A stretch of DNA of 17,221 nucleotides from Clostridiaceae bacterium (GTDB lineage: Bacteria; Bacillota; Clostridia; UMGS1883; JAAYMJ01): the NCBI GenBank assembly GCA_012521455.1, contig JAAYMJ010000126.1, positions 1 to 17,221 on the forward strand, read 5' to 3'. The position numbers were made by a program, and so were the translations under genes. This document shows positions 2-17,189 of the stretch, one piece after another (within the stretch, counting starts at the first letter, position 1; the number at the start of each line of letters is the position of its first letter). The notes beneath the pieces are model-generated. The model did not search any database, was not told the origin of the DNA, and saw only the letters and a program-made list of their open reading frames with translations.

Positions 2-385
2 ATTAATATAATAGAAGTGCCGGATTTAAAAATCCCCGAAAACGCAAGCGAAAAGCAAATTGCGGAACTTCTTATAAAAGAAGGCGAGGGGATTTTTCGG
101 TGCGTAAAAAACAACGCTTATGTAATCGCCCTATGCGTTGAGGCAAAACAAATGTCAAGCGAAGAGTTCGCAAAAACCCTAAAAACACTAATGGATAACT
201 CCGTTTCCGACATTGTCTTTATCATCGGCGGTTCCATGGGCCTTTCTGAAGAAGTGAAAAAAAGAGCCAACCTAAAACTGGGAATTTCCCAAATGACCCT
301 TCCCCATCAAATGGCAAGGCTTGTGCTCATAGAACAAATCTACCGGGCCTTTAAAATTTTAAACAATGAAACATATCACAAGTGA
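2..385 (+). CDS. rlmH: RlmH, 23S rRNA pseudouridine-1915 N3-methyltransferase, 5'-truncated by window edge
   Basis: This is the C-terminal four-fifths of RlmH, the small SPOUT-fold enzyme that uses S-adenosylmethionine to methylate the pseudouridine at position 1915 in helix 69 of 23S rRNA. The reading frame is open from base 2. The residues before the first GTG (INIIEVPD) match the interior of the family, so the GTG at 17 is not the start and about 35 residues lie outside the window. Diagnostic signatures are the SAM-knot segment FIIGGSMGLSEEV and the C-terminal block LPHQMARLVLIEQIYRAF followed by ...ETYHK, which ends at the usual family C-terminus. No convincing hairpin terminator follows the stop. 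Identification rests on these motifs and is secure. Confidence 0.95.
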   Translation: MNIIEVPDLKIPENASEKQIAELLIKEGEGIFRCVKNNAYVIALCVEAKQMSSEEFAKTLKTLMDNSVSDIVFIIGGSMGLSEEVKKRANLKLGISQMTLPHQMARLVLIEQIYRAFKILNNETYHK

Positions 386-2416: not shown

Positions 2417-2431
2417 AATAAAACCTCCTGT

Positions 2432-2460
2432 TTGCATTTCTCATTTTATTGTGGTATTAT
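2432..2460 (+). promoter_or_regulatory. Possible promoter of the yaaA-pcp operon
   Basis: TTGCAT (2432-2437), a 17-nt spacer and TATTAT (2455-2460) lie 35 nt before the yaaA ATG. The -10 is preceded by TGG, giving an extended -10 (TGnTATTAT), which would offset the weak -35. Confidence 0.45.
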
Positions 2461-2471
2461 TTACAAAGCAA
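2443..2471 (-). promoter_or_regulatory. Possible promoter of the SDR gene
   Basis: Read on the minus strand, TTGCTT (2466-2471) and TAAAAT (2443-2448) are separated by 17 nt. The -10 matches five of six consensus bases; the -35 matches only three. It overlaps the proposed yaaA promoter in the opposite direction. The call rests on spacing and position alone. Confidence 0.35.
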
Positions 2472-2494
2472 AAGTTTTAAAAAAGGGTGAAAAT

Positions 2495-3259
2495 ATGATA
2501 ATTATACTCTCACCTGCAAAAAACATGATTGAAGATACCGACAGCCTCCCGCCAAAAACGGAGCCTGTGTTTTTAGATGAAACCCAAAAACTTTTATCCT
2601 ACTTAAAATCCCTCCCTTATGAAAAATTGAAATGCTTATGGAATACAAGCGATAAACTGACAAAGCTAAATTATGAAAGGCTCAAAGCATTGGATTTGTC
2701 AAAAGCCAATACCCCTGCAGTTTTTGCTTTTTCAGGGCTTGCCTATAAATATTTAAAACCCCGTATTTTTACTTATGATGAATTTGAATACATAGAAAAG
2801 CACCTCCGCATTTTATCGGGTTTTTACGGGGTATTGTCCCCTTTTGACAAAGTTATCCCGTACCGGCTTGAACTAAAGGCCAAAATTGAATTTGAAAACT
2901 ATAAAAATTTGTATCAATTTTGGGGAAGCAAAGTCGCCGGATATTTGTTTTCAAAAACAGACACCATTATAAATTTGGCCTCAAAAGAATACAGCAAATT
3001 TATTATTCCCTATTTAACCCCAAAAATTAAATTTATCACTTGTATTTTTGGAGAACTTGAAAATGGCAGGATTATCGAAAAAGGTGCCCTTGTTAAAATG
3101 GCTCGGGGCGAGATGGCGCGCTTTATGACTGAAAACAACATTTTAGACATTGAAGGCCTAAAAGATTTTGACCGCCTAAATTACCATTTTGAAAAAAGCC
3201 TTTCCAGCCCCGGCACGTTGGTATTTATTAAAAAACACAAACAGGAGAAGATGCTATGA
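2495..3259 (+). CDS. yaaA: YaaA family peroxide-stress protein (DUF328/UPF0246)
   Basis: This is a 254-residue cytosolic protein of the YaaA family. In Escherichia coli the homologue lowers intracellular free iron and DNA damage during hydrogen peroxide stress, and the fold is reported to bind DNA. Hallmarks are the N-terminal MIIILSPAKNM, the block LSGFYGVLSPFDKVIPYRLE in the middle, FWGSKVAGYL, and the C-terminal KMARGEMARFM. Length agrees with the usual 250-260 residues. The start is ATG at 2495, because the family begins exactly at MIIILSPAK; the longer open frame from 2432 would add 21 unrelated residues. A weak AGGG-type ribosome binding site lies just upstream. The stop overlaps the pcp start by 4 nt (ATGA), indicating translational coupling. 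Confidence 0.93.
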   Translation: MIIILSPAKNMIEDTDSLPPKTEPVFLDETQKLLSYLKSLPYEKLKCLWNTSDKLTKLNYERLKALDLSKANTPAVFAFSGLAYKYLKPRIFTYDEFEYIEKHLRILSGFYGVLSPFDKVIPYRLELKAKIEFENYKNLYQFWGSKVAGYLFSKTDTIINLASKEYSKFIIPYLTPKIKFITCIFGELENGRIIEKGALVKMARGEMARFMTENNILDIEGLKDFDRLNYHFEKSLSSPGTLVFIKKHKQEKML

Positions 3260-3852
3260 AGAAGTTTTTAATTTCCGCCTTTGACCCCTTCGGCGGGGAA
3301 AAAATCAACTCATCATTGGAAATACTAAACCTCTTGCCGGAAAAAACAGGGGAAAAAACAATAAAAAAAGTGGTGCTCCCCACCATGTTTTTTAAATCCT
3401 TCGATGTTTTAAAAGAAGAAATCGAAAAAGAAAACCCCGATGTGGTAATCTGCCTGGGACAAGCGGGGGGACGAAAAGAAATAAACCTCGAGCGGATTGC
3501 GGTAAATATAATGGACGCAGAAATCCCTGATAATCAAAATTATAAAGCAGACGGTGTATTTATTAAAGAAGAAGGCCCCGCCGCGTATTTTACAAACCTT
3601 CCTGTTAAAAAAATCAAAGACGAAGTTCAAAATGTAATCCCCATAAAAATTTCAAACCACGCGGGAACCTTTGTATGCAACTACATTTTATACTCCCTCC
3701 TTGACTACATTTATAACAGCAATAAAAAAATCATGGGCGGGTTTGTCCATCTTCCCTATTTAAAAAAACAGGCTGAAGATAAAAAAAATATAACAGGCTT
3801 TTCAGAAGAAGAATTGTTAAAAGGCGTGGTTGCCATAATAAATTCCATATAA
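3256..3852 (+). CDS. pcp: Pyroglutamyl-peptidase I (peptidase family C15)
   Basis: This cytosolic cysteine peptidase removes N-terminal pyroglutamate from peptides. At 198 residues it is slightly shorter than the usual 200-215. The family core is intact: SAFDPFGGEKINSS at the N-terminus, CLGQAGGRKEINLERIAVN with the catalytic Glu79, SNHAGTFVCNYILY with the nucleophile Cys141, and GGFVHLPYL with His165. These correspond to the Glu/Cys/His triad of characterised C15 enzymes. AGGAG at 3242-3246 lies inside the end of yaaA, and the ATG overlaps the yaaA stop, so the two genes are cotranscribed. The functional link between the two is not obvious. A terminator hairpin follows directly. Confidence 0.93.
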   Translation: MKKFLISAFDPFGGEKINSSLEILNLLPEKTGEKTIKKVVLPTMFFKSFDVLKEEIEKENPDVVICLGQAGGRKEINLERIAVNIMDAEIPDNQNYKADGVFIKEEGPAAYFTNLPVKKIKDEVQNVIPIKISNHAGTFVCNYILYSLLDYIYNSNKKIMGGFVHLPYLKKQAEDKKNITGFSEEELLKGVVAIINSI

Positions 3853-3880
3853 AAAGGCGGAAAACCCGCCATTTTATTTT
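3851..3880 (+). terminator. Intrinsic terminator of yaaA-pcp
   Basis: GGCGG (3856-3860) pairs with CCGCC (3866-3870) across a 5-nt loop and is followed by ATTTTATTTT. An A-run precedes the stem. It begins almost at the pcp stop. From here to 3968 I see no gene. Confidence 0.75.
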
Positions 3881-4007: not shown

Positions 4008-4979
4008 TTAACCCACAAGACCTGTTCTTTCAATACCCTGCATGAACTTTCTTTGCAAGAACAAATACACAATTAAAATCGGCAGGATTACAAGGAAAGT
4101 ACCAGCCATAGCCACCGCACCGTTTGTCAAAAGCTCACCTTCATCGGTTTTCATTTCGTCGGTTGGTGCTCTCCTCATCATTGCGTACATGTTAGGTAAG
4201 TTCGCAGGCAGCAAATACCTCGCGGATTGGTTTATATAAATATTTGGCTCAAAATAGTCGTTCCAGTGCCATACCATTGCAAGCACGCCTGAAACCAATG
4301 TGGACGCCCCTGCAATGGGCCTAACTATTGTCCAGTATGTCCTAAACGCGTTACAGCCGTCAACCTTCGCCGCGTCTTCAAGCTCAAAAGGAAGCCCCAG
4401 ATAAAACTGCCTAAAGATGAAGATAAACAGCCCCCCTCTTAGCCCGAAACCCAAATAGGTTGGAACTATAAGGGGATAATATGTGTTAATTAACCCCAGC
4501 TTTGCGTATTGGATATAAAGCGGGAAAATAAGCACCTGCACCGGCACGATCAAGGTTAGTATTACCATTGCAAAGAGCACGTCGCGCCCAGGAAACTTAT
4601 ACCTTGCAAAGCCGTAAGCGATAAACGAGCAGGAAATCAAGTGCCCGATAACGCTGAAGGTGGTAACAATCGTGGAGTTTATAAACCCTGTGTTATAGTT
4701 TAATGACCTGTACGCCGCGATAAAGTTTTTAATGTAAAACCCTTTTGGTATGTAATTTACGGTAATATCCACTAGGTCTTCAGGGGACTTAAACGCGGTA
4801 GTTACCATGTAAATAAAAGGGTACAAGAACACAAACGCAAGGTCAATAAGCAGTATATACATGCAAATTCTTATCACAAAGCCCCTTAGGTGATTTCCCA
4901 AAAGGAACCTCTTTACTGTCTCCAAAACGTTTGGTTTTGTCCTGTTTTCACTATTTGCGGTCTCTATTTTCATAGACAT
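4008..4979 (-). CDS. Carbohydrate ABC transporter permease, MalG type (second pair)
   Basis: This is a 323-residue inner-membrane subunit of a binding-protein-dependent sugar importer. About six hydrophobic segments are visible (roughly residues 39-62, 103-125, 134-158, 165-190, 222-240 and 287-308). The cytoplasmic EAA loop that docks on the ATPase reads ELEDAAKVDGCNAF (199-212), with the family's conserved Gly present. The N-terminus is a hydrophilic extension of about 35 residues. ATG at 4979 follows AAAGGA with short spacing; ATG at 4973 is an alternative with longer spacing. It follows the MalF-like partner at 5038 by 58 nt, the widest gap in the operon but without a clear terminator. 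Substrate is unknown; it would pair with the 5038-5910 product. Confidence 0.92.
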   Translation of the reverse strand: MSMKIETANSENRTKPNVLETVKRFLLGNHLRGFVIRICMYILLIDLAFVFLYPFIYMVTTAFKSPEDLVDITVNYIPKGFYIKNFIAAYRSLNYNTGFINSTIVTTFSVIGHLISCSFIAYGFARYKFPGRDVLFAMVILTLIVPVQVLIFPLYIQYAKLGLINTYYPLIVPTYLGFGLRGGLFIFIFRQFYLGLPFELEDAAKVDGCNAFRTYWTIVRPIAGASTLVSGVLAMVWHWNDYFEPNIYINQSARYLLPANLPNMYAMMRRAPTDEMKTDEGELLTNGAVAMAGTFLVILPILIVYLFLQRKFMQGIERTGLVG

Positions 4980-5037
4980 TCATTCCTTTCGTGCCGAATG
5001 ACACAAAATTTTTACACACTTTAAGGTAATCGACCTT

Positions 5038-5910
5038 TTACCTTTCACCTATATTTATTGTAAACCTCTTCATCACAGCAAAGACTATCATTGCCAGCGT
5101 AAATACAAAGATGAAGTAAATCCAGCCCATCGCAGCGCCGTAAGCATACTGCTGGTTCTTGCTTTGGTCTAAAATGTAGGCTACAATGGGGTTATTTTGG
5201 TCTGTGAAAGAGTCAATCAATGTATACACAAAGTTTAACAAAATAACAGGTGAAATCAGTGGTAAAGTAATCTTCCAAAACATTTCCCATTCTGTCGCGC
5301 CGTCGCACTTCGAGCTTTCATAAAGAGAGGGTGAAATACCCTGAAGCCCCGCCAAAAACAGCACGATTTGAACGCCCGACTTCCAGAAAATCTGGGTAAT
5401 CCTAAGCAACAAATCATTTAACATTTGCACAATCTGCGGGCCCAAATATGAAAGCACGCCATCGGGGGAAATAAATTGGGTCGCCACGCTTGTAGCTTCG
5501 TCAACAACGCCCTCGCCCACAAGCTGTTTCATAATGTAACCGCTTCCCAACAGCACGGGAAGGAAAAACGCGCCTCTGAAAAACGCCCTTCCCTTGATGT
5601 CCTTGTTTATCATAATCGCAATAATAAGCGAGAAAATTATGATAATGGGCGTGTTTACCAAAGTATTTACAACGGACTCCTCAAGCCGGGGCAAAAAATT
5701 CACGTCAGTGATAAACAGCTTTTTATAGTTTGCAAGCCCCGCCCATCTCATTTGGAAGCCCGCAAGCTTTGTAATTTCGCTAAAGCTTAACCTGATTGAT
5801 TGTATCATTGGCACAAAGAATAAAAAGATTGAGCCAATAATCCAAGGGGATACAAACACAAACCCTTCAAATATATGCCTTTGCTGCATGTTTAGCCCTT
5901 TTTTCTTCAT
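5038..5910 (-). CDS. Sugar ABC transporter permease, MalF type (second pair)
   Basis: This is a 290-residue membrane subunit with hydrophobic segments at about residues 14-38, 83-104, 113-130, 172-192, 218-235 and 260-280. The EAA loop SLYESSKCDGATEWEMF (195-211) is recognisable, with Ser-Ser where many homologues have Ala-Ala. An extended periplasmic-side loop (about 131-170) separates the third and fourth segments. The start overlaps the stop of the preceding DUF5696 gene by 4 nt (ATGA), with GGAGGGG 8 nt upstream, so translation is probably coupled to that gene. The coupling argues that this importer pair handles a product of, or works directly with, the DUF5696 protein. It forms a heterodimer with the 4008-4979 product by family analogy. 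Confidence 0.92.
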   Translation of the reverse strand: MKKKGLNMQQRHIFEGFVFVSPWIIGSIFLFFVPMIQSIRLSFSEITKLAGFQMRWAGLANYKKLFITDVNFLPRLEESVVNTLVNTPIIIIFSLIIAIMINKDIKGRAFFRGAFFLPVLLGSGYIMKQLVGEGVVDEATSVATQFISPDGVLSYLGPQIVQMLNDLLLRITQIFWKSGVQIVLFLAGLQGISPSLYESSKCDGATEWEMFWKITLPLISPVILLNFVYTLIDSFTDQNNPIVAYILDQSKNQQYAYGAAMGWIYFIFVFTLAMIVFAVMKRFTINIGER

Positions 5911-8180
5911 CTTATATCCCCTCCGCTTGTAACAACAATATAGCTTGTTTTAGGAACTACTTCCCCTGAATCCAACACAAAGTCGTAATTCCCGTAATTA
6001 ACATAAACAGTGTCGCCGTTTTCATATTCCACGCCGTAAACATTTTCGTTTAACTTAAAGTGGCGCCTCATATTGGTTTTATATAAATCTCCCAATCTTT
6101 CTGAAAATTCCTTATAAGTCTCGCTGCAAGTGTCAATCCAGTCCTTATAGTAAGATGTAAATAACACGTTGTATTCGGTGTCTTTTAAATTATCGCTTGT
6201 TAAATAAGTAAGCTCATAATATGGGATACAACCGTATTCCACCCATTTTAGCTTTTGGATTGTAGCGTCATAGAATAAGTTTGCCTGATTTGATACATAG
6301 GGTAAAAACCCATGCACCACAAGCTGGTAAAACGGGATAGCCTCATCGGTTACAAAATAGCCTGAGTCTGAAATCGGCACGTCTTGAACATAGCTTACGT
6401 CTTTTAGCGCATACATGTTCCCGCCGATTACAGCGCTTTTGCCAAATTGTTCATTGGAAGCGTTAAATATTTCCGACCAAATGTTTTGAGCGTCCTGTCT
6501 TGTTACCGGGTTCTTTTTGTTGTAGTCATTATAAAGGTACGTGCCCATCTTGTCGAAGTTAAACCCGCTTATTCCAAGGCCGGCATACTTATTAACAAAC
6601 TTTTTAGTAAACCTCTCAAGCACAACCTTCGGCCCCAGCAAATACTTCTGGCTTTTTGGGTCGGTAATTAAGGTGTTGCTGTTTGTGTAAATAACGTCGT
6701 TTCTTACGGAGAAGCCGCCGTTTTTCTTGTTAGCGTCAATTAAATTGCCTTCTAGGAAAATGCTTCCCCCGCTTTGAGTTACAGTTTCAGCCAATTTCTT
6801 TAATCCCCTGACCCCGCCGAGGCGCCTGTCAGGTTTGAATGTCTGGGGATATTCCCCGTATCCGCCCTTATTCCAGCCGATTAGGTTTAAGTTTATATTC
6901 TGAACCCCGTTTTCTATCAATAAATTATAAATTTCCTCAGCGTTTGCAAAGGTGGTCATAGGGATGTACTTGTCAAAGATAAGCCTGTCTTCCTTAATCC
7001 CCATGAACAAATCAAGGCCAAAAGGCATAGCGGTGGCGTCTTTTAAAACATTGTTGATATTCCCTGTCTCAACCAAATATTTTCTGTACGCCCTCGCCAT
7101 TCCGCTGTAGTCGGAGTCTTCACCGGTCAAAAACACATACCTCATTTGCCTGTCATTGGGTATAATGTTTTTCTCGCTCTTAAGCACGATTGTTTTATCC
7201 TGCCTTGGGGTGTTGTAAAAACGCCTGTAAACAAATTCGCCGCTTATCCTGTCCAAGGCCATGATGTAGCCGCTTGGATATAGGTTTATGAGTGAATCCG
7301 CTTCGCCTTTTGAAATGATTGCCAAATATGAGTTATCATTTTGCTTCATGCCAAACACAGGCATGTTTGTGGTCTTAAGGCTGCTTTCTTCAAGCTTTTC
7401 ATATATTTCCAAATCCACGCTGTGCTCGCCATACACTTCCAATGTCAACTTGCTTTGCTTGTCAATTTCAGACTTTGCCTTGTGGTATAAAAGCGCGCCG
7501 CTTCCGTCGGGATAGAATACATACCCCGGGGTGTCCTCATTTGAAGCGCCCAAAAACGGCAAAACCTCAATGCTTACTATACCTGCTTTAGGCGCCCCTT
7601 GCCCATTCCCTTCCACAATGGAGTCAAAGGGAATGTCCACCACAAGCTCATCGCCTTCTATAGTAAAGTGAACATCAAATTTTATATCCAAATTTGAATA
7701 TTCATAATGTATTTTAAACCCGTTATTTATTTTTGAAATTTCAGCCTTGCTTGCGTCAAGGGCGGTGGTTTCAGTAGCCACGCTCTTTGTTTCCTTAAAT
7801 ACCACATAGTATAATAAAACTAAAGACCTTATCTTTTTTGCCCATGTGGTATTCATACCCTCCATATTTGTAAAGCTGTACCATTCATGACCGCTTCTTT
7901 TATCCTTGATTACTATATTGGGGGCATCTTTTATTCCCTTTTCCTCATCGCTGACTTTAACCAAATAAAGCTCCAATGTATCACTTTCTGCCATCTTCTC
8001 GCCGTTTGCCAAATAGCTGTGATACATATTTTCCGTCAATTCAATATGTCCTGCAACTTCTCCGCCAGCGTCAGTATCACTGCCTGCGTCAGCTTCACCG
8101 GGTTCGGGATCCGCGAAAGAAATAAGGCTTGTTAAAAGCACTAATGCAAAAAGCAAAATACAAAGTAATCTTTTCTTCAC
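5907..8180 (-). CDS. Exported DUF5696-type protein with a TIM-barrel-like domain, putative glycoside hydrolase-like
   Basis: This is a 757-residue exported protein. It starts with GTG at 8180. A classical signal peptide (MKKRLLCILLFALVLL...) is probably cleaved after SFA23, followed by an acidic linker rich in Asp, Glu and Gly (24-44). Residues about 50-380 look beta-rich. About 385-690 look like an alpha/beta barrel, with strand-end motifs LIGWNKGGYGEYP (433-445), GSIFLEGNL (472-480) and SGFNFDKMGTYLY (538-550). A beta-rich tail carries VYGVEYENGDTVYVNYG. I match this layout to the uncharacterised DUF5696 family from memory. Acidic residues such as Glu477 and Asp543 at strand ends would suit a retaining glycosidase, but no catalytic pair is proven. 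It lies 17 nt after YIP1 and overlaps the next permease gene by 4 nt. It lacks a lipobox or visible membrane anchor. Confidence 0.8.
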   Translation of the reverse strand: MKKRLLCILLFALVLLTSLISFADPEPGEADAGSDTDAGGEVAGHIELTENMYHSYLANGEKMAESDTLELYLVKVSDEEKGIKDAPNIVIKDKRSGHEWYSFTNMEGMNTTWAKKIRSLVLLYYVVFKETKSVATETTALDASKAEISKINNGFKIHYEYSNLDIKFDVHFTIEGDELVVDIPFDSIVEGNGQGAPKAGIVSIEVLPFLGASNEDTPGYVFYPDGSGALLYHKAKSEIDKQSKLTLEVYGEHSVDLEIYEKLEESSLKTTNMPVFGMKQNDNSYLAIISKGEADSLINLYPSGYIMALDRISGEFVYRRFYNTPRQDKTIVLKSEKNIIPNDRQMRYVFLTGEDSDYSGMARAYRKYLVETGNINNVLKDATAMPFGLDLFMGIKEDRLIFDKYIPMTTFANAEEIYNLLIENGVQNINLNLIGWNKGGYGEYPQTFKPDRRLGGVRGLKKLAETVTQSGGSIFLEGNLIDANKKNGGFSVRNDVIYTNSNTLITDPKSQKYLLGPKVVLERFTKKFVNKYAGLGISGFNFDKMGTYLYNDYNKKNPVTRQDAQNIWSEIFNASNEQFGKSAVIGGNMYALKDVSYVQDVPISDSGYFVTDEAIPFYQLVVHGFLPYVSNQANLFYDATIQKLKWVEYGCIPYYELTYLTSDNLKDTEYNVLFTSYYKDWIDTCSETYKEFSERLGDLYKTNMRRHFKLNENVYGVEYENGDTVYVNYGNYDFVLDSGEVVPKTSYIVVTSGGDIR

Positions 8181-8197
8181 CTTCTATTCCCCCTCCC

Positions 8198-8821
8198 TTA
8201 ATCCATAATGAGGAGCTTTAGCTCCAAGAATACGCCTTTGAAGAAATCCAGCGCCTGGCTTGTCATGGCGAATAAAAGCAAAGCCAAGCCAACAATGATT
8301 GCCATGGTTAGCGCTGTTAACAAAACCACGCCCACCGTTTTGGAGAAGGAATAGCCGTTCATTGTCTGAACACTAATGAAAAACAATACAAATACCCAAC
8401 CCCAAATTAATGTGTGAAGCCCGCTGTATAGGGAAAATTCCTGCAAGCTAACAATGTGTGAAAAAACAGTAACAGGAACTATCAAAACTATGTATGGCAA
8501 AAGGGAATATGCCGCCGCAAGAGCCATTTCGCCAAACAGCGTTTCCCCGTCAAGAATTGTTGTCACCGCGTAGCAAGATACAACTATCAAACCATACGGA
8601 ACCACAATCCTTATAATTTCCATCCAAATATTCGCGTCTTTCGGAGCAATTGCCGCAAGGGGGAAATGCTCAATAAAAATTGACGCGATTCTCAAAATAA
8701 CTGCCAAAGACACAAGTATAAAAGCAGGGGCATAGTTTGTCGACCCCCTCTTTTTCTTTAAAAAGAGGAAGGAATCAACAGGGTGAAACAGTATCGCCAA
8801 AGACTGATTAATCAAATTCAC
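8198..8821 (-). CDS. YIP1-family integral membrane protein
   Basis: This 207-residue protein is almost entirely hydrophobic, with five likely membrane segments (about 32-53, 68-89, 99-121, 133-154 and 160-187). The N-terminal NQSLAILFHPVDSFLFLKKK and the LAAAYSLLPYIV segment resemble bacterial YIP1 (Pfam Yip1 domain) proteins, whose molecular role is unknown. The start is GTG at 8821, with AGGAGG 8 nt upstream (8830-8835). It overlaps the 3' end of the NHL/TPR gene by 14 nt, so the two are probably made in fixed ratio and may act together. The DUF5696 gene follows after 17 nt. It has no transporter EAA loop, so it is not another ABC permease. Function here is not assignable beyond a membrane partner of the neighbouring exported proteins. 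Confidence 0.8.
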   Translation of the reverse strand: MNLINQSLAILFHPVDSFLFLKKKRGSTNYAPAFILVSLAVILRIASIFIEHFPLAAIAPKDANIWMEIIRIVVPYGLIVVSCYAVTTILDGETLFGEMALAAAYSLLPYIVLIVPVTVFSHIVSLQEFSLYSGLHTLIWGWVFVLFFISVQTMNGYSFSKTVGVVLLTALTMAIIVGLALLLFAMTSQALDFFKGVFLELKLLIMD

Positions 8822-10244
8822 GTCCTAAACCTCCTCCCCATGCTTTGTCAGCACGCTTTTTCAAGGCTTTAAAGATGATTATGATTAGCGCGATTATCAC
8901 CGCAGTCGTCAATACCACCCAAGTGAAATTGTCGCGGAACATATCGTGGCGGTATTCGCCAAAAGCTTGGGAATACCCTTCTTTATCCTCAACCTTACGG
9001 TATTCTTCCATCGCCTGCTTAAACTTTTCTTCCTTTATTAATACCTTTCCAATGCCCTTATGGGCAAGTGAATAGTTTGCGTCAATGGAAATCACCGTTT
9101 CCCAAAGTTCTTTTGTTTCTTCATAAAGGCCGTCTTTATAAAGCGTTACCGCCTTCTTTACAGTGTTTATAAACTTAGTAGGCGTAAATACCTGAATATT
9201 ATTTAGGTTTCTGTCTAAAACATAAATCCTTCCTTCGGAGTCCACCGCAATACTTGTGGGAAGCGAGAACGTGCCCTTCCATGTGCCAAGCCCGCCAAAT
9301 ACGCAGAGGTTATTCCCTTCCTGGTCATATTGGTAGATTTTCCCGCTCTTTTGCTCTAACACCGAAATTATCCCGTCTTTGTCCACCGCAATATCAACAA
9401 AATACGGGTCTGTTAATTTCTGGGTGGTGGGGTCCATAACCGGTTCCCCGTAAATGCCTTTTTTGTAGATATTCTGGCCTACGGAATTTATTTTTCTGAT
9501 TTGGTTTCTCTTACCCAATGTGGTTGCGTAAATCATACCCGAATCATCAATAACAAAGTTTGAATAGCTTTCCGCAACCGCCCTTGCGCGCTTGCTCTTT
9601 TGCTCTTCGGTTGCAAACATCCTGACCAACATTTCACGCAAGCTGAAGGACAACTCCGTTGCCCCTACAAAACCCCTGAAATTGTTGGATGAGTCAATTC
9701 TTATAAAGTTTTGCCCGCGGATTAGGTGAATCATCCCTGTGGGGTTAATGTAAACCTTGCTGGGAGTAAAAGTAAACTCCGCCCCCAAAAGTTCGGATTC
9801 GGGCTTTACAAACTCCTCAATAAACTCCCCTTCGGAGTTAATATGCACAATCCTTTGATTGTTTGTGTCCCCAATGAAAAGGTCCCCGTCCTCATCAACG
9901 TAAACACCGCTTGGGGCGTTAAAAGCCTTTCCCTCCGGCGCTTGGGTATATTCCCTGACAAATTGCCCGTCAAGGGTCAATTTAACAATCCTGTTGTTTC
10001 CTGTATCCGCAACGTAAAGGTAATTGTCCTTTGAAATAAACAAATCTTCAGCTTGATTTAAAAAACCTGCCCCGTTACCCAAGCCATATATAACATTTGT
10101 GACTTCATATGCTTTAGGAATCGGCACACGTTCCTCATCCTCCAGCACATAGTCCATCTTATCCGCCAATGCCTGCATTGAAAGAGAAAGGATTAAAGTA
10201 AATGCCGTTAATACAACAAATAGTCTTTTATGCATCAAAATCAT
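8808..10244 (-). CDS. Membrane-anchored NHL-repeat beta-propeller protein with TPR-like segment
   Basis: This is a 478-residue protein with an N-terminal signal sequence, probably cleaved after ALA27. NHL-type repeats follow: YVADTGNNRIVKL (77-89), LFIGDTNNQRIVHI (122-135) and YVLDRNLNNIQVF (341-353), with weaker blades between. This implies a six-bladed propeller outside the membrane. Residues about 362-425 are helical and TPR-like (LYKDGLYEETKELWETVI, then KFKQAMEEYRKV). A single transmembrane helix lies at about 440-460, followed by a short basic cytoplasmic tail. NHL propellers usually mediate binding rather than catalysis. The start may be ATG 10244 or ATG 10235; AAGGAAAGG (10245-10253) could serve either. 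The gene follows the MalG-like gene by 10 nt and overlaps YIP1. A scaffold or sensor role is inferred. Confidence 0.82.
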   Translation of the reverse strand: MILMHKRLFVVLTAFTLILSLSMQALADKMDYVLEDEERVPIPKAYEVTNVIYGLGNGAGFLNQAEDLFISKDNYLYVADTGNNRIVKLTLDGQFVREYTQAPEGKAFNAPSGVYVDEDGDLFIGDTNNQRIVHINSEGEFIEEFVKPESELLGAEFTFTPSKVYINPTGMIHLIRGQNFIRIDSSNNFRGFVGATELSFSLREMLVRMFATEEQKSKRARAVAESYSNFVIDDSGMIYATTLGKRNQIRKINSVGQNIYKKGIYGEPVMDPTTQKLTDPYFVDIAVDKDGIISVLEQKSGKIYQYDQEGNNLCVFGGLGTWKGTFSLPTSIAVDSEGRIYVLDRNLNNIQVFTPTKFINTVKKAVTLYKDGLYEETKELWETVISIDANYSLAHKGIGKVLIKEEKFKQAMEEYRKVEDKEGYSQAFGEYRHDMFRDNFTWVVLTTAVIIALIIIIFKALKKRADKAWGGGLGREFD

Positions 10245-10254
10245 CCTTTCCTTA

Positions 10255-11142
10255 TTAAGCCTTAATGCCCGAGTGGGTCATAGTTTCCATAATTTTAGCC
10301 TTCATAGCCGTAAAGATAACAATCGTAGGCATTGTCGTCAAGAAAGACGCCGCCGCCATCGCGCCTGTTCGGGCAATCGCGCCTGCCCCACCCGAGATTG
10401 TATTCAACGCAAGCGGTAATGTCTTCATGGCTTGGCTAGTGGTATAGATTAAGGGCCCCATATAATCGTTCCAGTTTGAAACGAAGGAAAGCACAACAAG
10501 GGTTGCCCATGCAGGTTTCATGTTCGGCATGACAATTTGGTAAAACGTCTTCCATTCGGTGGCGCCGTCAATGCGGGCAGCTTCCAAAATATCCTTCGGG
10601 AACTGCTCCATAAACTGCTTCATTAAGAAGAAATTGTACGGCACCGCGATTTTTGTAATGGTTAAAGCCCAGTAAGTGTTAATTAGCCCAAGATTATTCA
10701 CAACCATGTATGAGGGAATGCTTGTTACATGGCCTGAAAACATTAGGCAGGCAATAACCACCGAAAATATGGTGGCAGACCCCGGCGGGTTATGGACAAC
10801 CAGCCCATAAGCGCCTAAGGATGAAACAATTACAGTGCCGATAACTATAACCAAAGTAACAAACACGCTGTTAAATATGTACCTTGTAAAAGGCACAACA
10901 GTTCCGTCAACCGCCGCAAGAAGGTCCGAAAAGTTCACAAGAGTGGGCCTTCTCACAAAAAACTGCGGCGGGTAAGCGAACAATTCATCAAGCGGCTTAA
11001 AAGCCGTAGATACAAGGTAAACCAATGGAAGCGCGGTAAATATAACCAACCCAATCATAATTATATATGTAATTGTCCAGCCGGGCCTGATTCTAAATCT
11101 TCTTCTTCGTCGTCTTCTTGTTTTTGTAGCAGTCGCCATCAT
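10255..11142 (-). CDS. Carbohydrate ABC transporter permease, MalG type (first pair)
   Basis: This 295-residue inner-membrane subunit has six hydrophobic segments (about 22-46, 88-113, 122-143, 156-172, 208-224 and 258-280). Its EAA loop is close to consensus: ILEAARIDGATEWKTF (185-200). The N-terminus carries seven consecutive arginines (9-15) in the cytoplasmic leader before the first membrane segment, consistent with the positive-inside rule but unusually dense. Two adjacent ATGs at 11142 and 11139 are possible starts after a distant AAAGGA. It lies 41 nt after its MalF-like partner and 10 nt before the NHL/TPR gene. It should form the membrane channel with the 11184-12128 product and receive substrate from the modular binding protein encoded at the head of the operon. 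Confidence 0.93.
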   Translation of the reverse strand: MMATATKTRRRRRRRFRIRPGWTITYIIMIGLVIFTALPLVYLVSTAFKPLDELFAYPPQFFVRRPTLVNFSDLLAAVDGTVVPFTRYIFNSVFVTLVIVIGTVIVSSLGAYGLVVHNPPGSATIFSVVIACLMFSGHVTSIPSYMVVNNLGLINTYWALTITKIAVPYNFFLMKQFMEQFPKDILEAARIDGATEWKTFYQIVMPNMKPAWATLVVLSFVSNWNDYMGPLIYTTSQAMKTLPLALNTISGGAGAIARTGAMAAASFLTTMPTIVIFTAMKAKIMETMTHSGIKA

Positions 11143-11183
11143 TTATTAAACCATTCCTTTCAAATATTTATGAGAATCCTCTG

Positions 11184-12128
11184 TTATGTCTCATCCTTAA
11201 ATATTCTCATACAAATTCTGCCAAGGAAGAATGTTGTCAAGAATAAAAACATCGCAATGGCTGATGCGTAACCCATTTCAAACCTAATAAACGCGTGGTC
11301 ATAAAGGTGCGCGACAATGGTGTGGGCCGCATAGTCCGGGCTAGGCATGCCCGCAACCGACACCGCCACGTCAAACACCGCAAAGGAGTTTGTGATGGAG
11401 TTAATCGCGCCAAACAGAAGCTGGGGCTTTGAAAGGGGCAATGTAATGTGGAACAATTCCTGGGTCTTGTGGCTTATACCGTCAATCCTTCCCGCTTCAT
11501 ACAAATCGCTGGGTATGTTTTGAAGCCCCGCCAGGAATACCAAAAATCCCGTACCCATGCTCATCCAAATTGAAATTATGATTACAACAGGCATAATGGT
11601 GTCTGTGTCCTTGTTCCAAAGCACCGGCTCCATAATAATCCCGTACTTTAGTAGTATGTAGTTTATAAAGCCCACGCGGTCGGAAGAGAAGAACCAAAGC
11701 CAAACCTGGCTCATCGCAATACCGCTGCAAAGGGAGGGCGCGTAAAAAGCCAGTGAAAACAAGTTATTATACTTAAGCTGGTTTATAATCCACGCGAATA
11801 AAAATGACGCAAAAAACCCGATCGGGCCGGTAATCACCGCAAATGTCAATGTGTTTTTAATTGCGGTAATGAAGATATCGTCATCCAAAATCAACCTTTT
11901 ATAATTCTCAAGCCCGATAAATTTTGCAGGCTCCAACATATTATAATAGGTAAAGCTCAAACCCATGGCCGAAAATACAGGGAATATAGTAAATATGAAA
12001 AGCAAAATCAAAAACGGCGCCAAAAACACATACCCTATTCCCTTTTCGTTATACCATTTGCCAAACTTTTCTTTCCGGCTTATCTCTGGCGAACTCTCCT
12101 TTTTATTCATCAATGCAGGTGTTGCCAT
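11184..12128 (-). CDS. Sugar ABC transporter permease, MalF type (first pair)
   Basis: This is a 314-residue membrane subunit. Hydrophobic segments lie at about 32-58, 92-115, 124-146, 180-202, 234-253 and 286-308. The EAA loop DLYEAGRIDGISHKTQELF (208-226) contains the conserved Gly after an acidic residue. About 30 hydrophilic residues precede the first membrane segment. ATG at 12128 follows AAGGAG at a rather long distance (about 12 nt). The gene follows the 973-residue binding-protein gene by 32 nt and precedes its MalG-like partner by 41 nt, the standard order of a sugar importer operon (binding protein, MalF, MalG). No ATPase gene accompanies it, as is common in Bacillota where one MsmX/MsmK-type ATPase serves many importers. 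Confidence 0.93.
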   Translation of the reverse strand: MATPALMNKKESSPEISRKEKFGKWYNEKGIGYVFLAPFLILLFIFTIFPVFSAMGLSFTYYNMLEPAKFIGLENYKRLILDDDIFITAIKNTLTFAVITGPIGFFASFLFAWIINQLKYNNLFSLAFYAPSLCSGIAMSQVWLWFFSSDRVGFINYILLKYGIIMEPVLWNKDTDTIMPVVIIISIWMSMGTGFLVFLAGLQNIPSDLYEAGRIDGISHKTQELFHITLPLSKPQLLFGAINSITNSFAVFDVAVSVAGMPSPDYAAHTIVAHLYDHAFIRFEMGYASAIAMFLFLTTFFLGRICMRIFKDET

Positions 12129-12160
12129 TTTATGTACTCACTCCTTAAATAAAACTCCCA

Positions 12161-15082
12161 TTATTCTTCATCTTCAACGTATTCGCCATATTCTTCCTGT
12201 TTGGATCTTAGCTCTTTGTTGATGTCTTTAACTGCCTGTTCAAGTGAATCCCTTGGGTTTTGCCCGCCTGTAACAACCATGGTCCAAGCGTTGTTAACAT
12301 GCCGGCTTGTGAAGTACCCGCCAAGAACATTTGGCATTTCTTTTGCCCATTTTAGCTGGTCTAGTATTATATCTTTGTGCTTTTTGTCCCACGCGGAGTT
12401 TTCAAAAGCGGCAACATTTGCGCTGTTCCATCTCGCTTCAATCCCTAGCAAGGACTCAAGTTCCCTGCCAAACTGGGTTTGAGTTTCCTCGCTGGTCCAC
12501 CACTTTAAGAATTCCCAAGCAGCTTCTTTCTTTTTAGACTGACCCATAATCATGGTGGTCAAACCTGCAATCGGGCCGAAGGATCTGTCAATTTCACCGT
12601 TTTCCTTTAACATTCCGGGTATATATGTAATATCCCATCTTCCAAATAGTTCGGGCGCCGCTGTCGTCATCTTAATGTAGTCGGAATATCCCACAATGCC
12701 CATCGGCATTTCGCCGTTCCTGAACCTGTTGAAAAAGTCTGATTGCACCGGCATACCGTAGCTTACATATTGGTCGGTCCACATCTTAAAGGCCTGGTAC
12801 GCTTCAGCGGTGTCAAGATTTGACTTCTTGCCGTTATCCCTGTAATATGAGCCGCCTAACTGGTATAAGAACACGTTAAACCCTGCAGGTAAAAACTCAA
12901 GCTGGTTTTCGTATAAAATCGGCAAAACTTTTTCATAAACGTCGTTCCATGTCTTTGGAAGAGGAACCCCTAATTCTGATAAAATGTCCTTCCTGTACAT
13001 TAGAACTTGGAAGTCCATCTGGTCGGGGAGCGCGAATACCCCGCCCTTGTATTCAAATGGGGTTAGAATGGTTTTGTTAAACCTTTTTGCCACTTCGTCA
13101 AAGTCTTCAAACTGTCTCAAATCCGTAGCAGCGTTCCTGATTGCGAATTCAACAGGGCTTGTCACGTCAACGCCGCTAGCCACATCGGGAGCCCTGCCTG
13201 ATGTTACAGCAAGCATTAGCGCGTTAACGCTTCCCGCTGAAAGCTGCCCTGAAGGCAAAATGTTCATATTTATCCTGATTCCCGTCTTTGGCGTAAAGTC
13301 CTCGTCAGCAAGCTGTTGCACAAGCTGCGCCCAGTCCTTGCCGCGGCCAATCCAAACGTCAATCACTTCATTAACTTCCGCGTCTGTGAAAGTTGTGATG
13401 TTGTCGTAATCCACCGTAAAGGACCTCAAGAAGTTATCCCATGTAACAACGCTCTTTTCCCAAAAGCCTGATTTTGCTTTAGGAAGCTTTTGCCCTGTCG
13501 GGCCAAAGATAAAGTAGTCAATTGCCAGCGGCCTTGTTTTTAACTCATTAATATAAGTACCCAAATTCCTCTGTGCGTTGTTTAAGTCATCAAGCTTTCT
13601 TGAAATAGTGTCGGGCTTTCTCGCCATGTCCCTAAGCTGGTCGCTAATGGTGTAGAAATTATTTGCCATGGAAGGCACTTTTACGGAAATGCTTGTGATA
13701 ATGTCCCCCATTTCCTTTAAATCTTCGGACAATGCCTTAAACCCGTCGATAAGCCCCGGGATGGTCTTATCCAATTTATATTCAAAGTTAACGTCAGGAT
13801 TTGTGGAGGTAATTAAAATTATCTTCCTGTACCATTCGGAAAGCTCTATGGTCTTTTCCATAACGCCGAAAATAACATCGGTAAGGGGCCCCATAACAAC
13901 CCTCATGGATATTTCATGCCTTCCCTTTGTCAAATAAAAGAGATACGGGTTTCCCTCGTCATCGGAAATGGTATCCATTCTCCAGCCCCGCTCATAGTGG
14001 AATTTTACCGTATTCATTTCAGCGAAGGGGACTTTCCCGTCAATTTTTATCTGCCTGTATGACGGCAAACCGTCATTCCACGACTGCTGGTCGCGCATTG
14101 AAATCTGATATAGCCCGTCTTCTTTTATGTCAAACTCAAAAATAATCTCCTGCCCGCCGGTTCTCCAGCTCCAGCCGCCAATCATGTTTAGCTTTTTAAT
14201 ATGGCGCTCCCTAGGCTGGGTTTTCGGGTCGCTGTCGCTTGAACGCCTCAAAACCGGGTCGGATTTGTAAATTGCCGCGATTTCCGCTTCGTAAAGAGTG
14301 CTTTCCGACACTTCTTTATACCCGTTTCTCTTATATTCTTCCAAAACTTCGCTGTAAGGCCTGAATTCCTCAGGCTTTCTCAAAACAATTTCGCGGATAG
14401 CCATGGGCTCATCCACCACTTCAAAAGTAATGGTGTTTAAACCCTCATTCAAAAGGAAGGTCAACGGCTCTTCATAATAACCCTGGCTGTCATAAAGGGG
14501 GGTTTTTGTGAAAACAAAAACTTCCTTTTGTTTTTGCCTTACTTCGTCGCCCAAAGTGTTTCTCTTGGGTTCCCCGTCATCAACCCAACGCCTGTTAAAG
14601 GCAATGTTGAAGGCCTCATCAAAGGGAACCTTCCCGTTTATATGTATAGCCCTTTGAATTACAGTACCCGAGCCTTCAAGGGGCATATATGTAACATCCA
14701 TTTGGTAAAGCGCCGTTTTTGGCACATTAACCGAGAATGTGACAAACTCCGATTCTTCATAGGTTTCAATATATGTTCCCTCTTCATCGGTCACGATTTT
14801 GGGCTCCATTTCGCCCTCAAAGCTTACCGGCACGATTGGCACAATAATATCTTCACCGTCATAATCTTTTACGCCGCTTGCCAACGCGTCATTCCTGTAA
14901 TCGCGGTAAACCTTTTCATCAGTAACCTTTACCTGTTCTACATTTTCCAGGTCATCGCGGTATTTTTCCTTAAGCATCTGCCCCGGGTCTGCAACGGCAG
15001 TGCTCATTGTACTTGCGATAACCGAAAAGCAAAGTACAAAGGATGAAAATTTCTTTAAAAATCTTGCTGTATAAGCCGACAC
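12161..15082 (-). CDS. Modular exported solute-binding protein with two N-terminal carbohydrate-binding-like repeats
   Basis: At 973 residues this is more than twice the size of a normal sugar-binding protein. The start is GTG at 15082, 8 nt after AAAGGAG. The signal peptide ends near STMSTAVA31 and there is no lipobox cysteine. Two related beta-rich modules follow (about 105-235 and 310-412). They share YQ(M/I)..., I(N/D)GKVPF (148-154 and 347-353), an Arg-Trp segment and a terminal REIVL/DVIFGV strand, so they are probably an internal duplication resembling CBM6/35-like jelly rolls. A helical linker (about 435-515) leads to a family 1 solute-binding domain from about 570: SGRAPDVASG, GGVFALPDQMDFQVLMYRKDIL, LPKTWNDVYE and AAWEFLKWWTSEETQTQFG. 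The C-terminus is strongly acidic. It heads the operon and likely delivers an oligosaccharide to the adjacent permeases. Confidence 0.88.
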   Translation of the reverse strand: MSAYTARFLKKFSSFVLCFSVIASTMSTAVADPGQMLKEKYRDDLENVEQVKVTDEKVYRDYRNDALASGVKDYDGEDIIVPIVPVSFEGEMEPKIVTDEEGTYIETYEESEFVTFSVNVPKTALYQMDVTYMPLEGSGTVIQRAIHINGKVPFDEAFNIAFNRRWVDDGEPKRNTLGDEVRQKQKEVFVFTKTPLYDSQGYYEEPLTFLLNEGLNTITFEVVDEPMAIREIVLRKPEEFRPYSEVLEEYKRNGYKEVSESTLYEAEIAAIYKSDPVLRRSSDSDPKTQPRERHIKKLNMIGGWSWRTGGQEIIFEFDIKEDGLYQISMRDQQSWNDGLPSYRQIKIDGKVPFAEMNTVKFHYERGWRMDTISDDEGNPYLFYLTKGRHEISMRVVMGPLTDVIFGVMEKTIELSEWYRKIILITSTNPDVNFEYKLDKTIPGLIDGFKALSEDLKEMGDIITSISVKVPSMANNFYTISDQLRDMARKPDTISRKLDDLNNAQRNLGTYINELKTRPLAIDYFIFGPTGQKLPKAKSGFWEKSVVTWDNFLRSFTVDYDNITTFTDAEVNEVIDVWIGRGKDWAQLVQQLADEDFTPKTGIRINMNILPSGQLSAGSVNALMLAVTSGRAPDVASGVDVTSPVEFAIRNAATDLRQFEDFDEVAKRFNKTILTPFEYKGGVFALPDQMDFQVLMYRKDILSELGVPLPKTWNDVYEKVLPILYENQLEFLPAGFNVFLYQLGGSYYRDNGKKSNLDTAEAYQAFKMWTDQYVSYGMPVQSDFFNRFRNGEMPMGIVGYSDYIKMTTAAPELFGRWDITYIPGMLKENGEIDRSFGPIAGLTTMIMGQSKKKEAAWEFLKWWTSEETQTQFGRELESLLGIEARWNSANVAAFENSAWDKKHKDIILDQLKWAKEMPNVLGGYFTSRHVNNAWTMVVTGGQNPRDSLEQAVKDINKELRSKQEEYGEYVEDEE

Positions 15083-15149
15083 TTCTTTTTCTCCTTTCGC
15101 AAAGATATTCTGCTGAATTTGGAAGAATATAACCTTATTTAAAATTTAT

Positions 15150-15186
15150 TAAAATGGCCCGCCACCCTTGTGCTTGGCCCATTTTA
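15150..15186 (-). promoter_or_regulatory. Leader hairpin, possible attenuator, upstream of the modular binding protein
   Basis: On the minus strand AAAATGG pairs with CCATTTT, extended by two further G-C pairs after one mismatch, around a loop of about 15-19 nt. The 3' arm runs into a T-rich stretch (TTTTAATAAATTTT), which makes it terminator-like. It would lie about 125-160 nt into the proposed leader and about 68 nt before the start codon. It could equally be a plain stem without regulatory effect. Confidence 0.35.
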
Positions 15187-15222
15187 CAACGGTTTTTGGT
15201 AATTTTAGCAATAGAAAACACC

Positions 15223-15270
15223 TGCATAATTCCCTTCCCAAATTCATCCAAATTTAAGCAAAATTATGCA
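15223..15270 (-). repeat. Perfect 9-bp inverted repeat in the leader
   Basis: TGCATAATT (15223-15231) and AATTATGCA (15262-15270) are exact inverted copies separated by 30 nt. Inside the interval CCAAATT occurs twice. In the transcript this could close a long stem-loop; in DNA it could be two half-sites for a regulator. A+T richness raises the chance of coincidence. Confidence 0.45.
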
Positions 15271-15316
15271 AGATTTCTAAAAAACCTTATTTAATTTTGT
15301 GCCAATTTACTTATTT

Positions 15317-15345
15317 AGTATAAAATATTTATAATTTATTGTAAA
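15317..15345 (-). promoter_or_regulatory. Probable promoter of the eight-gene carbohydrate operon
   Basis: On the minus strand TTTACA (15340-15345) and TATACT (15317-15322) are separated by exactly 17 nt, each one base from the sigma-A consensus. Transcription would begin near 15310, giving a leader of about 230 nt before the GTG at 15082. Confidence 0.55.
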
Positions 15346-15361
15346 TCTTAAATTTTTTCTT

Positions 15362-15375
15362 ATTTAGCGCTTTAT
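15362..15375 (-). promoter_or_regulatory. Weak cre-like site (CcpA catabolite control)
   Basis: The minus-strand sequence ATAAAGCGCTAAAT matches the core WAARCGYTW of the CcpA cre consensus but misses the outer TG and one inner C (11 of 14 positions). It lies just upstream of the proposed -35. Catabolite regulation would make sense for a sugar importer, but the match is partial. Confidence 0.25.
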
Positions 15376-15549
15376 CATCATTTTTTTCCCTAAAGCCTAA
15401 ATTTTTGTCACATTTTTCAACATATGAAAAAAATTGTTCTGCCCAATTTTTTGCCCCATCCTCATTTTTATATTATTTTACAATAAAACCTCTTATAAAT
15501 AAAGATATTTTGGTCATGTTTTAAAAATATTTCAAAATTAAAGGGTTTA

Positions 15550-15588
15550 AAAACAAACAAAACGGGCACCCGCCCGCGGATGCCCTTA
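15550..15588 (-). terminator. Intrinsic terminator of the lipoprotein binding-protein gene
   Basis: GGGCACCCGC (15564-15573) is complementary to GCGGATGCCC (15576-15585) apart from one G-T pair. On the minus strand the stem is followed by GTTTTGTTTGTTTTT. It begins just after the stop at 15592, so the upstream binding-protein gene is transcribed largely apart from the eight-gene operon. Confidence 0.85.
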
Positions 15589-15591
15589 TAT

Positions 15592-17163
15592 TTACCTGCT
15601 CATCAACCTGTCATATGCCCCTTGATAGATTTCAATCGCCCTGTCAATTCCCATTTCTTTTAGCGTACTTACATATTCATCCCAATAATCAAGAGGTGTT
15701 GTGCCTTTAATAAATTCAACATACATTTTTGCCGCGTAAGAGTTAATTTCGCCGATAAAGGAATTTAACTCGTCGGATTCTTCAGTTCTAAAGGTTAGCG
15801 GCGGAAGCATGCCGTCGGTGGGGCCGTCGCTCCAGATTGCCTGAGCGTCTTCAGTTTGGACTTTTCTCACTTCAATTGGGTCTAAAACTTCGAAGGAATC
15901 AGGCGTGCGCACAAGGTGGGGTGAATTTACAATAGTGTATTTATTTAGTCCCACATTCTTGCCGCCCGGGTAATTCATGATGGTGTCGGTCCATACATAT
16001 TCGCCGTTTACCAATTCGTATGTCACGCCTTCCTGGCCGATTTCAAAAAGGTCGGCGCCTTCTTTTGTATAGTGGGTGTCAAACCACATTACAGCGATTT
16101 CAGGATATTTGCACTTTGACGTAATATACGCTTCATATCTTCCGTTTCTCCAGTTTTTCTGCCTGAACCTTGCCTTGTCGCCCCTGTTTTCAACAGGATA
16201 GGGCGCTGCAACCACTTCAAAATCCCCAAAACCTACCGCAACGGAAGCCCCGACTTTGCCGCTGGTTAGGTACTCTGCGCGGCTGTCACCTGAACGGGTG
16301 TCAAATTCAGGGTCAAGCAAACCTTCCTGATACCACTTGTTAAAGGTCTGCAAATACCTCTTATACCCTTCTTCCATCTGGCCGAATTTGATTTTTCCGT
16401 CCCTTCCTACAATAAATCCTTTGTTAACGTCAAACCCACCGATAAACACCCCAAATTCCCTTGTGGTGTCCCACCCCGGGTTATCCGCCATTAGGGGGAT
16501 TTCTATCCCGTATTCCTTAAACGCCTTGAGCATGTGATACCAGTCATCAAAGGTTTCCGGTTTTTTCAAGTTTAAATCTTCCAACAAATCTTTTCTGATT
16601 AGCGGCCCGCCCCATGATTTTGCCTCAAAGGTAAACAGTTTCGGGAAACAGAACATATTTCCGCCGTCAGTTACGGTAAGCCTTCTTGCTTCCTCATCGG
16701 AAAGCCTTGCCTTTTGGTAATTTGGCGCGTATTCTTCAATCAATTCATTTAATCTTAAAATCTTTCCATCCTCAATTGCCTTGTCAGGGCCTCCCCCCGG
16801 CACAACGTTTGAGTTCACGGTTTCAATAATATCCGGAAGGTCGTCTGCAGCAAACATAATGGGAAGCTGCTCATGCCATACCCCCACAGGGTGCAAAAAC
16901 TCAATTTCAACGCCGGTTTTTTCCTGCAAAACCCTGTATGTTTCAATTTCGGCATAATTGCTTACGGCGTTTGTCTTATCGTTTTTAACCCAATATGTAA
17001 GTTTGACAGGTTCATCGGTAACCCTGTATATTTTATCCGTAACCTGCGGTTTTTTAAGGCCCGTTTTTGCTTCTTTTTTCCCGCATGAGGAAACTGAAAT
17101 AGCGATTGCTGCGGCCGATAAAACTATCAAAGTATTTTTCAGCAACCTTTTCCCTTTTTCCAT
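15592..17163 (-). CDS. Extracellular solute-binding lipoprotein of a carbohydrate ABC importer (LplA-like)
   Basis: This is a 523-residue binding protein. I prefer ATG at 17163 as the start, because AAAGG lies 9 nt and GGAG 3 nt upstream; ATG at 17172 directly abuts the AAAGG. The lipobox VSSC at Cys27 (ISVSSCGKK) predicts lipid anchoring on the outer face of the membrane. The mature part has the large Lpl-type binding-protein pattern: LTYWVKND, YRVLQEKTGVEIEF, ADDLPDIIE, GPLIRKDLLEDLNLKKPETFDDWY, YLTSGKVGASV and the C-terminal SYAAKMYVEFIKGTTPLDYWDEYVSTLKEMG. Such proteins typically bind oligosaccharides. No permease follows directly; its partners may be one of the two pairs in the downstream operon. 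It is the first gene of its unit as seen here. Confidence 0.92.
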   Translation of the reverse strand: MEKGKRLLKNTLIVLSAAAIAISVSSCGKKEAKTGLKKPQVTDKIYRVTDEPVKLTYWVKNDKTNAVSNYAEIETYRVLQEKTGVEIEFLHPVGVWHEQLPIMFAADDLPDIIETVNSNVVPGGGPDKAIEDGKILRLNELIEEYAPNYQKARLSDEEARRLTVTDGGNMFCFPKLFTFEAKSWGGPLIRKDLLEDLNLKKPETFDDWYHMLKAFKEYGIEIPLMADNPGWDTTREFGVFIGGFDVNKGFIVGRDGKIKFGQMEEGYKRYLQTFNKWYQEGLLDPEFDTRSGDSRAEYLTSGKVGASVAVGFGDFEVVAAPYPVENRGDKARFRQKNWRNGRYEAYITSKCKYPEIAVMWFDTHYTKEGADLFEIGQEGVTYELVNGEYVWTDTIMNYPGGKNVGLNKYTIVNSPHLVRTPDSFEVLDPIEVRKVQTEDAQAIWSDGPTDGMLPPLTFRTEESDELNSFIGEINSYAAKMYVEFIKGTTPLDYWDEYVSTLKEMGIDRAIEIYQGAYDRLMSR

Positions 17164-17189
17164 TTTCTCCATCCTTTCTTAAAATAAAT

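Follow-up and report, generated by a model that had tools for sequence, protein, structure and literature searches.

NHL-TPR, YIP1 and DUF5696 genes consistently accompany one ABC permease pair in a Clostridiaceae operon and its relatives

Results

Organization of the eight-gene operon

The subject of this study is an operon on contig JAAYMJ010000126.1 of a Clostridiaceae bacterium (assembly GCA_012521455.1), in which an NHL-TPR protein, a YIP1 protein and a DUF5696 protein are encoded with two permease pairs of the ATP-binding cassette (ABC) type. The window is the whole analysed stretch of 17,221 nt. Eight open reading frames (ORFs) on the minus strand run from 15082 down to 4008 in the transcription order sbpL-MalF2-MalG2-NHL-TPR-YIP1-DUF5696-MalF1-MalG1, where sbpL encodes a solute-binding protein (SBP). 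Glycoside hydrolase families are abbreviated GH and transmembrane segments TM.

12161-15082, minus strand: sbpL, 973 aa (SBP_bac_1, 90.8 bits)
11184-12128, minus strand: MalF2 permease (BPD_transp_1, 45.9 bits)
10255-11142, minus strand: MalG2 permease (BPD_transp_1, 66.3 bits)
8808-10244, minus strand: NHL-TPR-TM protein (NHL, 67.6 bits; hydropathy scan)
8198-8821, minus strand: YIP1 protein, five predicted TM segments (Yip1, 26.6 bits, below the cut-off of 28.6; homologs)
5907-8180, minus strand: DUF5696 protein, secreted or N-terminally anchored, predicted GH129-like fold (DUF5696, 558 bits)
5038-5910, minus strand: MalF1 permease of the core (BPD_transp_1, 40.8 bits)
4008-4979, minus strand: MalG1 permease of the core (BPD_transp_1, 46.6 bits)
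3856-3870, no strand assigned: GC hairpin with T tails on both strands, 3' of MalG1, the last operon gene

The intergenic distances from sbpL to MalG1 are 32, 41, 10, -14, 17, -4 and 58 nt, with DUF5696 overlapping MalF1 at an ATGA. These coordinates agree with the initial annotation, made from the window sequence alone, which had described eight minus-strand genes with gaps of at most 58 nt and overlaps of 4 and 14 nt. It had also reported no clear internal terminator and a terminator at the operon end, and both descriptions hold. Inside the operon there are eight minus-strand hairpins, all weak (3-4 G-C pairs) and all within coding sequence, and the hairpin at 3856-3870 is likely a terminator common to the operon and a converging pyroglutamyl peptidase gene. 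The terminator scan is weak evidence when taken alone, with 30 terminator-like sites in the window against 19.0 ± 4.9 in shuffled sequences.

A five-gene core is conserved across loci and genomes

The window and its homologs supplied profiles, which were applied to 108 loci obtained in four draws. The first consisted of 19 NHL-centred loci in named records. The second comprised 16 DUF5696-centred loci from the order, including the additional copy that the window's genome carries. The third and fourth, both from the phylum, supplied 55 DUF5696-centred and 18 further NHL-centred loci. The use of DUF5696-centred as well as NHL-centred draws served as a check on ascertainment bias.

The five-gene core NHL-TPR/YIP1/DUF5696/MalF1/MalG1 was complete in 93/108 loci. 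In 14 of the 15 incomplete loci genes were missing only at a contig end, no more than 310 bases away, and the remaining one (L180) runs into a stretch of N. These cut or masked loci aside, none of the 108 had only part of the NHL-TPR/YIP1/DUF5696 trio, and none had trio genes where MalF1/MalG1 were missing. Chance proximity of the core genes was rejected on these zero counter-examples. The initial annotation had proposed that the trio co-occurs with MalF/MalG genes; that claim is strongly supported, no locus having been found in which the trio stands apart, and the genes are tied together much more firmly than the window sequence alone could reveal. The tight link between the trio and the permease genes was likewise borne out: DUF5696 and MalF1 were separated by at most 60 nt in 96/96 pairs, and by exactly -4 or -1 nt in 43, overlap lengths that rest on longest-ORF starts and are partly artefacts.

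All eight genes, including sbpL-MalF2-MalG2, were found in 70/108 loci, far above chance. The three genes lie upstream of the core in most loci that have them, downstream in L128, L138, L142, L150-L152 and L168, and outside the fetched flank in, for example, L111, L114, L115, L126, L131, L132, L134, L166, L170 and L178. When they were absent from the flank, an SBP-like ORF, judged by eye, often adjoined the core. Because the place and presence of sbpL-MalF2-MalG2 vary, the five genes are regarded as the unit and the three as a frequent partner. The arrangement of the trio between two permease pairs, as first described, is therefore true of the window and usual, though not constant, elsewhere. 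In L166 (3779-10714, plus strand) the core itself is reordered, with DUF5696-MalF1-MalG1 followed by an NHL+YIP1 fusion.

At the genome level, PF18952 (DUF5696) scored above its cut-off in 39/398 genomes of the phylum, the window's included, with a best E-value <1e-140 in 37. An NHL-TPR protein was present in all 37 of these strong-DUF5696 genomes and in 39/398 overall; the two extra genomes, G270 and G381, gave partial or weak matches. PF18952 matches below or near the cut-off (e.g. G034, G099, G261, G329, G352) were excluded before counting, and four genomes with such weak matches served only the GH comparison. Weak PF18952 matches in L069-L071 were rejected as family members, the stretches carrying no core gene.

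The named records comprise 13 Paenibacillus genomes plus metagenome bins carrying the labels Bacillota, Clostridiales, Clostridiaceae, Avimonas, Spirochaetales and Chloroflexi, though such bin labels may be mistaken. A separate search recovered the eight-gene set, in window order, on two RefSeq-annotated plasmids. On the Paenibacillus cellulosilyticus plasmid (L193, 509 kb) NHL and YIP1 form one 2160-nt gene named YIP1, and ugpC is adjacent; on the Butyrivibrio fibrisolvens plasmid (L194, 243 kb) a GH43 gene is adjacent. The window's own genome (82% complete) holds a second, diverged NHL-YIP1-DUF5696 set on a 3.3-kb contig (L067, contig C154, 1-3344, minus strand), cut by both contig ends.

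NHL-TPR and YIP1 proteins

The NHL-TPR-TM protein has a hydrophobic signal-like N-terminus, an NHL propeller, a TPR-like part and, by hydropathy scan, a C-terminal TM segment at 443-461. The NHL match (PF01436) covers two stretches and lies well over its cut-off of 20 bits. The YIP1 protein has five hydrophobic stretches. Its own Yip1 match falls below the cut-off, and the label is supported by its homologs; they carry PF04893, and many are fused to the NHL protein. The protein resembles Yip1 proteins in its hydrophobic stretches, its match just below the cut-off and its Pfam-labelled homologs, and differs from them in its link to a putative sugar permease and in its fusion to, or position next to, a secreted NHL-TPR domain. 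NHL-TPR and YIP1 form a single ORF in 51/108 loci, and likewise in many of the database proteins listed. The fusions are strong evidence that the two proteins act together.

Permeases, ATPase and sbpL

BPD_transp_1 was matched by all four permeases (40.8-66.3 bits, against a Pfam cut-off of 26.4), and no window permease reached an NCBIfam equivalog cut-off. All four permease alignments show a conserved EAA loop (MalF1, n=81; MalF2, n=63; MalG1, n=81; MalG2, n=64), so that ATPase coupling seems feasible for both pairs. The window's genome has one MalK-type ATPase match (OB_MalK), a 369-aa ORF outside the operon, which may serve these permeases. The permease pairs with EAA loops, the SBP gene and the MalK-type match resemble CUT1-type oligosaccharide importers (MalFG, UgpAE, GlcTU), which share a MalK/UgpC-type ATPase; the transported substrate is presumably a sugar. 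Unlike CUT1-type importers, the operon has two permease pairs and a fixed accessory set, NHL-TPR-YIP1 and DUF5696, which is not known to accompany importers of that type.

In one locus, L136 (3861-6720, plus strand), an insertion of ~1.6 kb that contains a 167-aa plus-strand ORF interrupts malG2 and leaves it as two ORFs; an Rfam search of the split gene gave zero matches.

After a signal peptide, the sbpL protein has two beta-sandwich domains (79-235 and 262-396); residues 400-516 are helical, and an SBP domain (519-973) makes up the C-terminal end. The boundaries are taken from a lower-confidence structure model (pLDDT 72.9, built from 14 sequences). The best Foldseek rows were oligosaccharide-binding proteins, with a beta-1,2-glucooligosaccharide-binding protein at the top, which does not fix the ligand; all rows shown were SBPs and are uninformative on the N-terminal part. 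For sbpL, a weak Golvesin_C-like match occurred in 13/14 members.

DUF5696 has a predicted GH129-like fold

The model of the DUF5696 protein has a GH129-like fold over its whole length: an N-terminal beta-sandwich, a TIM barrel and a C-terminal beta domain. The predicted fold is shared with GH129 (NagBb, PF11308) and with GH129-like DagB, an alpha-1,3-(3,6-anhydro)-D-galactosidase. The window protein differs from both in having no PF11308 match and in being obligately partnered with an importer, and the mapped position of the catalytic Asp is not conserved over the DUF5696 family. At E <= 0.01 the window protein matched only PF18952, and PF11308 was matched by a single protein, in 1/398 phylum genomes, outside the 37 DUF5696 genomes.

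NagBb Asp435 and DagB Asp486 are described in PMC5698469 as the common catalytic Asp of GH129 and DagB. The window protein has D543 where this residue maps, the mapping being by sequence and strand order and not by superposed coordinates. Across 38 sequences, made up of the window protein and those nearest to it, position 543 is D in 18 and E in 18. In the wider family no acid occurs at 543 or 544 in 65/187 members (rows <98% identical), with 62/178 at a 90% identity limit and 53/147 at 70%. Left out of the conservation set were P0093-P0109, any protein no longer than 690 aa, and locus copies that were weak or truncated. As the mapped Asp is not conserved over the family, DUF5696 may or may not process a glycan.

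Genes beside the core

From 203 co-directional neighbours, 96 proteins were picked by hand, with Paenibacillus thinned, and scanned with no random-locus comparison. Among the best 25 of 79 matching families were SBP_bac_1 (28 proteins), LacI (6), GH28 (4), GH43 (3), an arabinofuranosidase C-terminal domain (3), GH42 (2) and GH5 (2), with single matches to GH26, GH31, a fucosidase, an apiosidase and a pectic acid lyase. These neighbours point to plant-polysaccharide use; the enzymes vary and the importer set is fixed.

Discussion

The operon probably encodes one dedicated cell-surface machine for glycan capture and ABC import, often found near plant-polysaccharide genes. We favour this reading because the core is fixed, DUF5696 and NHL-TPR coincide across genomes, NHL-TPR and YIP1 are fused in many loci and the DUF5696-MalF1 gaps are tight. 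It draws further on the EAA loops, the MalK match, ugpC beside the P. cellulosilyticus set, the DUF5696 fold, the neighbours and the evolutionary distances. From the gene unit, the fusions, the predicted fold, the EAA loops and the setting, all observed, we infer complex formation, a substrate, an action of DUF5696 and a role of YIP1. The NHL-TPR ectodomain, tethered via its own TM segment and YIP1, would hold DUF5696 beside the MalF1G1 permease, where DUF5696 would grip, and perhaps trim, a sugar chain. An SBP (sbpL with its two beta-sandwiches, replaced by an ordinary SBP where sbpL is lacking) would pass oligosaccharides to MalF1G1, and would also feed MalF2G2 where present. A MalK/UgpC-type ATPase encoded elsewhere would power both permease pairs. 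The initial annotation had suggested a dedicated surface machine that processes or senses a polysaccharide before import. Its interpretation is partly supported overall: the co-occurrence, the short DUF5696-MalF1 gaps and the SBP and plant-polysaccharide neighbours agree with it, and the unit is amended to a five-gene core. DUF5696 has a GH129-like predicted fold, but its catalytic Asp is not conserved over the family, so processing is uncertain, and none of the observations points to sensing.

Several points weigh against the proposed machine. The nucleophile column of DUF5696 is not conserved over the family, and trimming may thus not occur. The neighbouring enzymes differ between loci, implying no single substrate. 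Because the profiles derive from relatives of the window itself, exceptions to the pattern at great evolutionary distance may have escaped them. The genome survey scored at most the best 3-4 candidates per genome, making copy numbers lower bounds. The evolutionary distances, which count in favour of the machine, also carry a limit: the DUF5696 pairwise distances, compared by Spearman correlation in 70 complete loci picked by score limits of their own (perhaps not the 70 eight-gene loci), are followed by those of NHL (0.81), MalG1 (0.81), sbpL (0.79) and MalF1 (0.77), and less closely by YIP1 (0.69), MalG2 (0.66) and MalF2 (0.57), in a comparison with no unrelated-gene control and in which common descent alone gives some correlation.

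A more specific scheme, which we put forward tentatively and consider rather unlikely as a whole, joins these observations. DUF5696 would be a glycosidase-fold protein that has lost classical catalysis in much of its family and become a fixed, membrane-held, glycan-presenting subunit of MalF1G1, and the NHL-TPR-YIP1 scaffold would gather MalF1G1, MalF2G2 and the beta-sandwich SBP into a double-importer complex. This would be a counterpart in kind of the Sus-like systems of Bacteroidota, which take up glycans with a SusC/SusD pair. The likeness, in kind only, lies in surface glycan-binding and -processing proteins kept with a transporter; the transporters here are ABC permeases, and no search was aimed at SusC/SusD.

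In the leading alternative, DUF5696 belongs to a new GH129-related family and acts outside the cell as an ordinary, active glycosidase, with NHL-YIP1 as a plain membrane anchor or in separate use, in a normal glycan cluster without a special complex. The whole-length fold, the acid retained at 543 by the window protein and those closest to it and the glycosidases among the neighbours would all fit. Set against them are the family members with no acid at the nucleophile columns, the free mixing of D and E at 543 within the window's clade, which is unusual for a nucleophile, and, in each complete locus, the constant presence of one permease pair while the enzymes vary, unlike the placement of ordinary glycosidases. 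We judge this explanation rather unlikely.

The set might instead be non-nutritional: it would build, trim or recycle surface polymers of the cell itself, and the ABC permeases would return fragments. Envelope polymers could be the target of YIP1, of a propeller tethered to the membrane and of a protein with a GH129 fold, and archaeal Yip1 relatives are linked in PMC5898192 to predicted membrane remodelling. Such a role seems very improbable given the SBPs, LacI regulators and plant-polysaccharide enzymes nearby and a patchy presence (37/398 genomes), with several copies in some genomes and two plasmid occurrences. NHL-YIP1/DUF5696 could also be a sensor that signals external glycan via the transporter and not a capture device, as membrane-spanning proteins with large outside domains and the LacI-type regulators (6/96 neighbours) would allow. 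No kinase, cyclase or DNA-binding part was seen in the core of any complete locus read, and the literature covered knows of no signalling by YIP1; we consider a sensor very improbable.

DUF5696, a bacterial YIP1 and the NHL-TPR-TM protein, none with a known job here, gain a definite, testable setting as constant companions of a single ABC permease pair. The partnership extends to 37/398 genomes of one phylum plus records labelled Spirochaetales and Chloroflexi. It points to sugar-importer accessory subunits undescribed in the literature searched, no description of DUF5696 or this gene set having been found in open-licence PMC literature (subscription papers were outside the search). For plant-degrading bacteria that are not in culture, the gene set can serve as a marker of glycan uptake.

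Flanking genes and signals

Further features lie on either side of the operon. Rfam and tRNA searches of the window gave zero matches.

15592-17172, minus strand: upstream lipoprotein gene, 526 aa, with lipobox; outside the span of the initial annotation
15564-15585, minus strand: strong hairpin, 9 pairs, 7 G-C, between the upstream lipoprotein gene and sbpL
15317-15345, minus strand: candidate operon promoter TTTACA-17-TATACT, score 10/12
3256-3852, plus strand: pyroglutamyl peptidase gene, 198 bits; ordinary, converges on the operon terminator
2432-3259, plus strand: peroxide stress protein YaaA gene, 249.5 bits; ordinary neighbour
1676-2437, minus strand: short-chain dehydrogenase gene (adh_short_C2, 221 bits)
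17-385, plus strand: SPOUT_MTase gene, 146.8 bits; ordinary neighbour

The upstream lipoprotein had zero Pfam matches of its own. A relative (564 bits) found in L053 scores 43.6 bits against SBP_bac_1, and by this homology the lipoprotein is likely a second SBP. In L053 the relative sits 42 nt before sbpL; in the window the strong hairpin intervenes. The lipoprotein is a possible partner of the operon, and its gene, behind its own hairpin, may form a separate transcript.

The ~500 nt between this gene and sbpL (15083-15591, minus strand) contain the strong hairpin and the candidate promoter, and could be a leader or attenuator. The promoter is no evidence by itself, the scan having found 41 such sites in the window against 38.4 expected. 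The short-chain dehydrogenase gene is on the operon strand but lies past the convergent genes, and hence outside the operon.

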